Positions 5,360-25,741 of a stretch of DNA of 47,737 bases are shown here, piece by piece (positions within the stretch are counted from its first letter, which is position 1; every line of letters begins with the position of its first letter). Position numbers and translations under genes: made by a program. Source of the stretch: an uncultured beta proteobacterium (GTDB taxonomy: Bacteria > Pseudomonadota > Gammaproteobacteria > Burkholderiales > SG8-41); assembly GCA_903913965.1 (NCBI GenBank), contig CAIWNB010000170.1, forward strand, positions 1 through 47,737. Direction: 5' to 3'. The notes beneath the pieces were generated by a model, which had not been told where the DNA came from, did no database searches, and saw only the letters and a list, made by a program, of their open reading frames with translations.

Positions 5360-6299
5360 ACGCACCTCCAACGCTCGCGGCAGCACCGAGGATGCGCACT
5401 TCGGGTTCGAGGACGATAGAAAATTTTTCACGCACGGTCCGTGCCGCCAGCTCAATCAGTGTCTCGATATCGGCGGCGGTTGCCTGACCACGATTGACGA
5501 TGAAATTGGCATGCTTGTCGGAAATCATCGCGCCGCCGTTGACGTGACCTTTGAGTCCGCAGGCTTCGATCAGGCGCGCGGCATGATCGCCGGGCGGGTT
5601 GCGGAAAACCGAACCCGCGTTTGGCTGACCCAGGGGTTGCGCAGCAATACGCTGCTCGAGCAGCCGGCGGATGACCGCACGTGACTTCTCAGTGTTGCCG
5701 CGCGGCAGGCTGAAGCGCGCGGCGAGAAACCATTCTTCACTGCCATCGAGCAGACCAACCTGGCGATAGGCAATTTTGTAATGGGCTGGTGTGCGCTCAC
5801 GAAGACGCCCCTGCCGATCGACCGTAGTCACACTTTCCACGATCTGCCACGTCTCGCCGCCGTAACAACCCGCATTCATCGCCAGCGCGCCACCGATGGT
5901 GCCCGGAATACCGGCCATGAATTCAGCGCCGCTGTGCGAATGGTTAGCGGCAAAACGCGCGAGCTTCGGACTCGGCACACCCGCCTCGGCGTAGATCGTG
6001 CGACCCTCAAGACGGATGGCCTTGAGCACGCCATGGGTAAAAATCACCGTGCCCTCAAAGCCGGTGTCTCGCACCAACAGATTACTGCCCAGACCAACCA
6101 ACACCAGCGGCTCGGCAACAGGCGTGGTGGCCACGAAAGCGCACAAGTCGTCGAGATCGGCCGGCACATACGCGCGGCGCGCAGTGCCGCCAGCGCGCCA
6201 GCTGACATGGCGCGCCATCGGCTCGTCCAAACGCAGCTCGCCGCGCAACGCCGTGGGCGGACGGCTGCTCTGCGTTGTGAACTGTTCGCTCATGTCCAT
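5352..6299 (-). CDS. murB: UDP-N-acetylenolpyruvoylglucosamine reductase MurB
   Basis: MurB is the FAD enzyme that reduces UDP-GlcNAc-enolpyruvate to UDP-MurNAc with NADPH. The ORF has 315 residues from ATG 6299, or 313 from the in-frame ATG at 6293. FAD-binding motifs are [14 protein letters not shown] near residue 70 and [19 protein letters not shown] near 130. [10 protein letters not shown] near 225 carries the catalytic serine. The first 20 or so residues are outside the conserved fold. The 6293 start forms an ATGA overlap with a 25-codon upstream ORF and could be reached by reinitiation. Only a weak GGGA precedes 6299. The true start is therefore uncertain by two codons. Confidence 0.96.
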
Positions 6300-6367
6300 G
6301 ACAATCCCGTCAGATCCGGCAGCGCGACATCCCGCGCGTTAGACCACGATTGGAAACGACGGCTCAT
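6290..6367 (-). CDS. 25-codon bridging ORF between murC and murB
   Basis: This unannotated short ORF has its ATG overlapping the murC stop (ATGA, 6364-6367) and its TGA overlapping the second ATG of murB (ATGA, 6290-6293). GGAGG lies six bases before its ATG, inside the murC end, and is a much better ribosome binding site than anything in front of murB. The peptide starts [10 protein letters not shown] and ends LTGLSWT, with no known motif. It is in a different frame from murB. It could be a coupling leader that hands ribosomes from murC to murB, or the remnant of a longer murB N-terminus shifted out of frame. The geometry is certain; translation is inferred. Confidence 0.45.
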
Positions 6368-20371: not shown

Positions 20372-20460
20372 GTGTTTTCCCCAAAACGAAACATGCGAAA
20401 AAAATCCGCGCACCTCATCAACTGCAAGGCACCTCGAACGCCGGCAAAAACCAAATACTG

Positions 20461-20801
20461 CAGGGAGTCAGTCGATAAGCCGGGTTCTGTCGACAGCTTG
20501 CGCCATCGTGACAGTCATTCCTCTTGGCGCGTGGTTACCCGCGCGCTCCAGCCACCTACCCGCAAGCTCGGCGGGCCACGTCGACGCTTGCCTATTTGGT
20601 GTTGCTCCGGGTGGAGGTTACCGCGTTTCACCCTGTTACGAACCTCGCCGGAAGACCGGGTCGATACGCAACAGACTCGTCTCTGTGGCCCTATTCCTCG
20701 CCTCGCGGCGGACGGCCGTTAACCGTCACCCTGCCCTATGGAGCCCGGACTTTCCTCTACCGGCGTAAACATCACCGGCAGCGACTGCCTGACCAACTCC
20801 C
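20461..20801 (-). ncRNA. rnpB: RNase P RNA (class A)
   Basis: This is the catalytic RNA of RNase P, which matures tRNA 5' ends. On the minus strand the 5' part reads GGGAGTTGGTCAGGCAGTCGC. It is followed by the universal P4 sequence GAGGAAAGTCCGGGCTCC, the GTAACAGGGTGAAA-type J region near the middle, and the 3' strand GACAGAACCCGGCTTATC. GGGAGT at the 5' end pairs with ACTCCC at 20463-20468 to close helix P1, which sets the ends. A TACAAT -10 element stands at 20808-20813. Ends are good to a few bases. ORFs overlapping it are not genes. Confidence 0.95.
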
Positions 20802-23981: not shown

Positions 23982-24545
23982 ATGAAGGCTCTTCGACTCA
24001 TCACGATATTGCTGGCGGCTTCACTGTTGACAGGTTGCGTTGCGGCAGTGATTGGCGGCGCCGGTGGCGCGGCACTCATGGGTGCAGACCGGCGTACCGT
24101 CGGCACGGTCACCGAAGACCGCGGCATTGAAATCAAGGCAGCCAGCCGGATTTCCGATAAATATCCCGACGCCCACATCAACGTCAACAGTTTCAACCGC
24201 ATGATCCTGGTCACCGGTGAGGTGGCATCGAATGCCGGGCGCAGCGAGATCGAAAAAATCGCGCGTGCGGTTGAAAACGTACGCGGCATTTACAACGAAC
24301 TGGCGGTGGTCGGCAACAGTGACCTGAGCAGCCGCACCAACGACACCTACCTTACAGGCAAGATCAAGGCGCGCTTCGTCGACGGCCAGAAATTCAACGC
24401 GGTGCACGTCAAAGTGGTAACCGAAGCAGGCAACGTTTATTTACTCGGCATGGTCAGCCGCAAGGAGGCTGACGACGCCACCGAAATTGCACGCACCACC
24501 AGTGGCGTGCAAAAAGTCGTGCGCCTGTTTGAGTTCATCGACTAA
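23982..24545 (+). CDS. dolP: BON-domain outer-membrane lipoprotein DolP (YraP)
   Basis: This is a lipoprotein involved in outer-membrane integrity. It has 187 residues. Residues 1-18 form a lipoprotein signal peptide with lipobox LLTGC, so Cys18 is the lipidated residue. Two BON domains follow: one around residues 45-105 (INVNSFNRMILVTGEV) and one around 115-180 (NAVHVKVVTEAGNVYLLGMV). The gene starts directly after the upstream stop codon, and the two are surely co-translated. Hairpins with no coding potential follow. Confidence 0.93.
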   Translation: MKALRLITILLAASLLTGCVAAVIGGAGGAALMGADRRTVGTVTEDRGIEIKAASRISDKYPDAHINVNSFNRMILVTGEVASNAGRSEIEKIARAVENVRGIYNELAVVGNSDLSSRTNDTYLTGKIKARFVDGQKFNAVHVKVVTEAGNVYLLGMVSRKEADDATEIARTTSGVQKVVRLFEFID

Positions 24546-24594
24546 AAACGTTTTTTTGTCACAACCGTTGCCCGGACCATGAGCGGGTAACGGT
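24544..24594. terminator. Hairpins between convergent dolP and the Gly/Arg-rich gene
   Basis: Just past the dolP stop is AAAAACGTTTTTTT, a small A/T hairpin ending in a seven-T run on the plus strand, a plausible weak terminator. It is followed by a strong inverted repeat at 24564-24594 with arms ACCGTTGCCCG and CGGGTAACGGT (11 bp with one G-T position, nine-base loop) that lacks a T-run on either side. Together they fill the 75 bp between two convergent genes. Confidence 0.55.
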
Positions 24595-24620
24595 CAAACA
24601 CTACCGCTAAACTTAAACAA

Positions 24621-25109
24621 TCACGCCGGTCCACGGTCTCCACCGCCACCCGCGCCTGGTGCGCCGCCCGCGCCACGGCGCTTGTTACGTCCGCGCCGTC
24701 TCGCCTGACCTGGGTTGGACCCCGGCCCCTGATCCGGACTGCGCGCCTGATTAGGCACTCGCCCTTGATTCGGCGCACGCCCCTGTGCATGACCCTGGGA
24801 GTACTGGCGTGGCAGCTGTTTTTTCTGGCCACCGCCGCCGGCGCGTCGATGGTTGCCGCGCCCACCCTGACCACCACCAGCGAAACGCTTGACGCGGGCG
24901 ATGTCATTATTCACCGCAGCGATGTTTGCAGCACGTACATCAGGCGGATCCTCGGCGTTGGCGTTGATCTCTTCGAGCAGGGCCTGCAACTTGGGCAGGG
25001 CTTGCGCACACGCAACACCGGCGCCACTTTCCTTCGCCGCCTCCTGCCTGTGCATTTCGATGAATGCAATCGCATCGATCACTTCATCACTGACATTAAC
25101 GCCGATCAT
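24621..25109 (-). CDS. Unclassified protein with Gly/Arg/Gln/Pro-rich tail
   Basis: I do not recognise the N-terminal family. From MIGVNVSDEV the protein has 162 residues. Residues 1-75 look folded and helical (VIDAIAFIEMHRQEAAKES, ALPKLQALLEEINANAEDPP). From about 78 on it is low-complexity: RGG-like GGGQGGRGNHRRAGGGGQ, then imperfect six-residue units around APNQGR, VPNQAR, SPDQGP, and a basic Gly-rich end (RRRGRNKRRGAGG). Such tails often bind RNA or other polyanions. GGAGG eight bases before the ATG fixes the start; the longer frame runs into rfaE2 on the other strand. It is convergent with dolP and divergent from rfaE2. Confidence 0.7.
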   Translation of the reverse strand: MIGVNVSDEVIDAIAFIEMHRQEAAKESGAGVACAQALPKLQALLEEINANAEDPPDVRAANIAAVNNDIARVKRFAGGGQGGRGNHRRAGGGGQKKQLPRQYSQGHAQGRAPNQGRVPNQARSPDQGPGSNPGQARRRGRNKRRGAGGAPGAGGGGDRGPA

Positions 25110-25258
25110 CCAGTCTCCCTCCAACGCACTTGCCACGCGGGTTTCGCCACAAATCAACACACACAGCCGCCGGCACAACGCGCAGCCACAGATCTTCGCA
25201 ACGGCCGAAGACCACGACTTCGAATGCCGTTTGCGCGCGCGTTTGCTACACTCCGCGC

Positions 25259-25741
25259 ATGAATACCGCCCCCGCGTTCGAAACCAAACTGTGTCCGCCG
25301 GAACAGCTGCAAAGCCGTATCGCCACGTTGGCACGTCCGCTGGTATTTACCAACGGCGTCTTTGATATTCTGCATCGCGGCCACGCCAACTATCTGGCGC
25401 AGGCACGCGCCCTGGGCGCCAGCCTGCTGGTGGCGATCAACAGCGACGATTCCGTGCGCCGGCTCGGCAAGGGCCCCGAACGTCCCATCAATCCGCTCGA
25501 CGACCGCATGGCACTGTTAGCCGCGCTCGAGTCGGTCAGCCTGGTCACCTGGTTCGATGACGACACACCCCTTGCCCTCATCCAGCTCGTGCAGCCCGAC
25601 GTTCTCGTCAAGGGCGGCGACTGGTCGGCCGACAACATCGTCGGCGCTGCCGACGTTAAAAACCGTGGCGGCAGCGTACACTCCATCCCGTTTATACACG
25701 ACCGTTCTACGACGGCCACACTGCGCCGCATACGCGGCTAA
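25259..25741 (+). CDS. rfaE2: D-glycero-beta-D-manno-heptose 1-phosphate adenylyltransferase
   Basis: This enzyme forms ADP-heptose for the lipopolysaccharide inner core. It is a stand-alone form of the C-terminal domain of HldE. It has 160 residues. The nucleotidyltransferase motif TNGVFDILHRGHANYL (about 31-46) contains the HxGH site, and the ISSTxx-like end reads IHDRSTTATLRRIRG. KGPERPINPLDDR near residue 75 is also typical. No ribosome binding site stands before the ATG, and a TACACT hexamer is only a few bases upstream, so a leaderless or very short-leader mRNA is possible. It ends eight bases from the convergent SPOR gene. Confidence 0.94.
   Translation: MNTAPAFETKLCPPEQLQSRIATLARPLVFTNGVFDILHRGHANYLAQARALGASLLVAINSDDSVRRLGKGPERPINPLDDRMALLAALESVSLVTWFDDDTPLALIQLVQPDVLVKGGDWSADNIVGAADVKNRGGSVHSIPFIHDRSTTATLRRIRG

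Follow-up and report, generated by a model that had tools for sequence, protein, structure and literature searches.

The window, i.e., the whole stretch of 47,737 nucleotides analysed here, carries a minus-strand gene for a protein of an undescribed family (Table 1). The initial annotation had placed an open frame at 24621-25109 without giving a strand. This frame proves correct, and we add that it lies on the minus strand, where it fills the interval exactly with 162 codons plus stop from an ATG at 25109. The claim of a strong ribosome-binding site stands as well: GGAGGG precedes the ATG, and the four clade relatives L022-L025 have an equally purine-rich GGAGGG or GGAAGG at this site. The gene converges with a BON-domain gene and diverges from a cytidylyltransferase-like gene (Pfam CTP_transf_like), which we take to be rfaE2. 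Plus-strand frames overlap the ORF. A search for a sigma-70-like promoter found none, the one terminator-like site found equals the shuffle mean and the downstream hairpin does not exceed shuffles (z -0.44). An RNA element at the ORF was rejected, the sole Rfam match in the window being a bacterial RNase P class A RNA at a distance of 4 kb. The ORF is real.

Table 1. Features of the gene, its protein and its surroundings, in window coordinates (residues count from the start of the 162-aa protein).
Feature	Position	Strand	Basis	Remark
ORF, 162 aa + stop	24621-25109	minus	open frame, translation, homologues	undescribed family
GGAGGG ribosome-binding site	25117-25122	minus	read from sequence	7 nt upstream of ATG
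Predicted acidic three-helix bundle, residues 8-77	24879-25088	minus	AlphaFold2 on 29-row alignment; conserved columns	
Predicted disordered Gly/Gln/Pro/Arg linker, residues 78-136	24702-24878	minus	low pLDDT	
APNQGR-like stretch, residues 112-129	24723-24776	minus		within linker; repeat not beyond composition
RRRGRNKRRG, residues 137-146	24672-24701	minus	alignment, motif count	window-clade counterpart of RN(K/R)GRRTMGR
Glycine-rich end, residues 147-162	24624-24671	minus	alignment	variable in family
BON-domain gene	23982-24545	plus		convergent neighbour
Cytidylyltransferase-like gene	25262-25741	plus	Pfam	divergent neighbour
RNase P class A RNA	20460-20800	minus	Rfam	

Homologues, taxonomic spread and chromosomal site

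The family is carried by uncultured Burkholderia-related bacteria. In the fetched loci, 111 matching frames reduce to 53 distinct homologues, all from three families of one bacterial order. Public genome contigs contributed 28 named loci, most of them from metagenome assemblies under the title Betaproteobacteria or Burkholderiales. The assemblies of L022 and L024, both with close relatives, are titled Bordetella parapertussis and Chitinophaga pinensis, titles that look like mislabelled bins. Of 60 related genomes, 19 (the own one among them) matched in a first search, or 16 after removal of three matches in G004, G007 and G025. There, residues 38-76 matched inside a protein that, from its sequence, is presumably guanylate kinase; profile search gave no match in these genomes and the three were taken as chance. 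A match in G410 (E 6e-4) inside a 1398-aa open frame was also taken as chance.

The initial annotation had looked to an absence of the ORF from close relatives as a counter-sign. Instead, profile searches of genomes, many of them incomplete, revealed a patchy presence: the gene occurs in 10 of the 15 genomes of the window's genus (own included) and was not found in five, while its family counts 19 positives among 74 genomes (own included), a second family 31 among 98 and a third two among three. For the wider samples (order, phylum and class) full scoring covered no more than 14-15 candidates per genome, which makes absence less certain; here 11 of 399 genomes of the order were positive, one probably by chance, and the own genome was the sole match in both the phylum (1/398) and the class sample (1/369). 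Copy number is one in 12 of the 13 genomes searched behind the named loci and two in the remaining one. L047, from the same genome as G213, has two copies about 4 kb apart (1488-2000 and 5944-6306), both of which end in a short serine-rich stretch and lack the arginine motif. Viral contigs, plasmids and phages (the latter searched with one relative as query) contained no relative, and a mobile gene was rejected on these grounds.

A fixed operon was likewise rejected, as neighbours differ between groups. To compare the site itself, the BON gene was sought in 14 genomes and 15 loci (L080-L094) were examined, nine of which show both BON and rfaE2. The family gene lies between the two in L083; in L080, L084, L087, L088, L092 and L094 the gap is about 40-100 bp, with no room for it, and in L082 and L090 other ORFs occupy the interval. 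The L082 ORF in this interval (24545-25262 in the window) resembles by eye a TctC-type receptor. L086 has the family gene beside BON with rfaE2 outside the stretch, and five further loci show BON only. Genome G009 combines an empty BON-rfaE2 site with a family gene on another contig. In addition, a supported fork of the gene tree (98/94) places L015 beside L017 and L033, the members coming from two families of the order. The variable or empty sites and this cross-family fork suggest a dispensable chromosomal gene that has been gained, lost and moved, transfer falling short of proof. Among the neighbour proteins, a subset of 29 was scanned by Pfam. One group has a hemerythrin-domain gene 28-42 bp downstream on the same strand, in seven of the 28 named loci (L029, L030, L031, L034, L036, L037 and L040).

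Predicted folded domain and disordered tail, and an arginine-rich motif

The initial annotation had described a helical N-terminal domain of about 75 residues, and as a prediction this is upheld: AlphaFold2 places three helices at residues 8-28, 30-50 and 56-77. By ten-residue block the bundle has a pLDDT of 82-96 (74 in the first block), the model as a whole reaching a mean pLDDT of 68.4 and a pTM of 0.47. A compact relative is modelled alike, as a bundle with a disordered tail (mean pLDDT 75.4, pTM 0.57). D12, I17, R21, A37, L38, L41 and L44 are invariant in the 29-row alignment and the net charge of the domain averages -4.6 (range -10 to +1). Within the families listed by the fold tools, comparison finds generic helical bundles only, and neither Foldseek nor the viral model fold search gave a match with an E value of 0.001 or below. 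Tubulin cofactor C (Z 9.6, rmsd 5.6 over 74 residues), the translin-like NeC3PO (Z 8.7, rmsd 2.4 over 70 residues, amid unrelated bundles at similar Z), MIT and BAG share the helix arrangement, at Z values which, as the tool warns, may mean a common helical arrangement only.

Sequence libraries give a similar picture. The window protein has no match in Pfam or PHROGs and sub-cut-off matches only in NCBIfam (E 0.068 and 0.074); the Pfam, NCBIfam and PADLOC scans of 29 full-length members returned only scattered weak matches (best E 0.0068). The PADLOC anti-phage defence models account for two families with one match each among these 29 (best E 0.045). For known RNA-binding families in Pfam and NCBIfam (Hfq, ProQ/FinO, cold-shock, KH, S1 and others) neither the window protein nor the 29 members gave a credible match. 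A sequence search of the PDB found weak repeat- or coiled-coil-like matches only, with an engineered protein at the top (E 0.0027), and the motif peptide had no match there. The motif strings are absent from the literature searched, and among the matches listed we found no description of the family. The designation as an unknown protein thus holds, since the profile searches run gave no credible match of the N-terminal domain to a known family. The family is new and unnamed in the libraries searched; its architecture is of a known, ordinary kind. In its Gly/Arg/Gln composition it resembles RhlE helicase tails and SSB linkers, with a sub-threshold NCBIfam match to RhlE in two of the 29 members (best E 0.032) and a match to SSB in one (E 0.017), but these matches are at chance level and neither a helicase nor an OB-fold domain is present here.

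The disordered, basic character ascribed to the tail agrees with the model: its pLDDT of 43-57 by block predicts disorder, and its net charge is +15 over 83-84 residues. The emphasis on an RGG-like stretch, repeats and a glycine-rich end was misplaced, as these form the variable, lineage-specific part, and what the members have in common is a short arginine-rich motif. No RGG tripeptide occurs in the window tail, and four other members counted have 0 to 3. The reported APNQGR/VPNQAR/SPDQGP units are visible by eye, and TRF detects an 18-bp unit in 1.9 copies in the window gene, yet as repeats they do not go beyond composition, the self-match score of the tail being reached by 462 of 5000 composition-preserving shuffles. 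A comparison of repeat number between relatives had also been proposed; in the 29-row alignment such units are seen in the window clade only.

Tail length varies from 25 to 155 aa among the 51 complete members. The 49 tails of at least 35 aa divide into 32 compact ones (mean 43 aa, +10.6) and 17 longer ones (mean 84 aa, +13.1); length and charge correlate (Spearman 0.72), yet charge grows far less than length. On the gene tree (81 columns; L106 and L049, which both run off the contig end, were left out of the tail-length count), long tails need four changes at a cut-off of 58 aa, three of them forced by well-supported branches, and six at 65 or 70 aa, four of them forced; the changes may be gains or losses. 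The tree thus needs four to six changes depending on the cut-off, and filler length has changed more than once. Against L023-L025 the domain has a dN of 0.12-0.14 at a dS of 1.7-2.0, and is thus under purifying selection; the tail has a dN of 0.29-0.32 at a dS of 1.6-1.9. For the L031/L037 pair the tail ratio is about 0.5. Between the window gene and its closest relative, L022, the domain dN/dS of about 0.7 rests on very few changes and says little. Domain and tail are both constrained, the tail less so.

The arginine-rich motif [RK]x[KR]GRRxxGR, most commonly in the form RN(K/R)GRRTMGR, is present in 38 of the 53 members. In 26 of these it lies 3-5 residues away from the C-terminus, and in the other 12 it lies 11-37 residues away; at fixed positions, M occurs in 31 and T and N each in 28 of the 38 rows. 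In the five window-clade members RRRGRNKRRG takes its place, without the TMGR half. Ten members have neither form: L106 and L049 are those cut by the contig end, L122 is one residue off, L075, L123, L126 and L129 carry variant Arg/Gly stretches, and three of the 51 complete members (both L047 copies and one in L124) lack the motif. The motif region is of low confidence in the models of both the window protein and the compact relative, which gives no sign of the motif docking on the bundle.

Proposed function and competing readings

We tentatively propose, with rather less than even confidence, that the family consists of accessory nucleic-acid-binding proteins, most likely RNA-binding. In this model a small stand-alone protein uses its acidic three-helix bundle probably to self-associate or to hold a partner, and the bundle would carry the arginine-rich linear motif on a flexible leash, so that the arginines of the motif could bind nucleic acid, most likely RNA. 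The Gly/Gln/Asn-rich filler, lengthened in some lineages with little added charge, would have more effect on reach or self-association than on the binding tip. Nucleic-acid binding, the choice of RNA over DNA, self-association and a cytosolic location are what we infer here; no evident signal sequence was seen by eye. The RNA reading is supported by the motif in 38 of 53 homologues with a basic counterpart in five more, by the opposition of a basic tail to an acidic domain, by the constraint on the domain and, to a lesser degree, the tail and by the disorder predicted for the tail in the window protein and the compact relative. The lack of a conserved operon partner across groups fits the expectation for a stand-alone binder. 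Against it stand the missing match to a known RNA-binding domain, a motif more sequence-specific than charge alone needs, the three complete members without any such motif and the absence of the TMGR half from the window clade. A bolder version, which we regard as unlikely, would see here a new, condensate-capable RNA-binding family, in which a self-association bundle is combined with RN(K/R)GRRTMGR as a new linear motif that recognises a single conserved RNA or ribonucleoprotein and growth and loss of the Gly/Gln filler tune self-association.

The closest precedents are the DUF1127 proteins, which are likewise small, bacterial and equipped with an arginine-rich segment, and for which binding of both RNA and protein is reported. 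RNA binding of CcaF1 is reported to be tied to the arginines of its DUF1127 domain, and the arginine-rich YjiS is reported to show no transcript association (PMC11707872). Agrobacterium DUF1127 proteins are reported to act by interaction with the kinase PhoR (PMC12501420). Our family differs in having, ahead of the disordered tail, a distinct acidic helical domain some 75 residues long, and DUF1127 is not among the four families that a Pfam hmmscan of the 29 full-length members returned (E up to 0.1). These precedents cut both ways, and the arginine motif as a docking peptide for one protein (e.g., a kinase, a polymerase or a ribosomal protein), with the bundle as effector part, stays a strong rival, if on balance a doubtful one. 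The reported PhoR interaction, the residues fixed beyond charge and the position of most motifs close to the C-terminus all speak for docking; conversely, no conserved neighbour gene hints at a partner, the hemerythrin-domain gene being confined to a quarter of the named loci, and the basic motif of the window clade is a different one.

A minor nucleoid-associated DNA binder is an unlikely reading too. A small helical domain with a basic disordered tail would suit DNA as well as RNA, but one of the 53 tails, not that of the window protein, contains an AT-hook core (RGRP or GRP[KR]), and the patchy presence in the window's family (19 of 74 genomes) fits a core nucleoid protein poorly. Quite improbable is neutral drift, in which the Gly/Gln-rich filler would reflect a GC-rich genome and a dispensable gene of minor or decaying function: patchy presence, empty sites, a tail that changes faster than the domain and repeats within compositional expectation would all agree with it, yet in the comparisons with L023-L025 tail dN still falls far short of dS, and the motif persists in three families of the order. 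A spurious, unexpressed ORF can practically be dismissed, for although overlapping plus-strand frames exist and GC-rich antisense frames often look Arg/Gly-rich, 53 distinct homologues occur in differing surroundings, dN is low against a near-saturated dS and the clade shares a purine-rich ribosome-binding site.

If RNA binding, the reading we prefer, is true, an RNA-binding family missing from the searched libraries exists in uncultured bacteria of groundwater and soil. Independently of this, the 51 complete members offer a ready-made comparison: the folded domain stays constant, the basic motif is shared and the disordered tails vary from 25 to 155 aa, and the effect of glycine-rich filler in bacteria is therefore testable. 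L123 and L126 have extremely glycine-rich tails of 155 aa around their variant motif.
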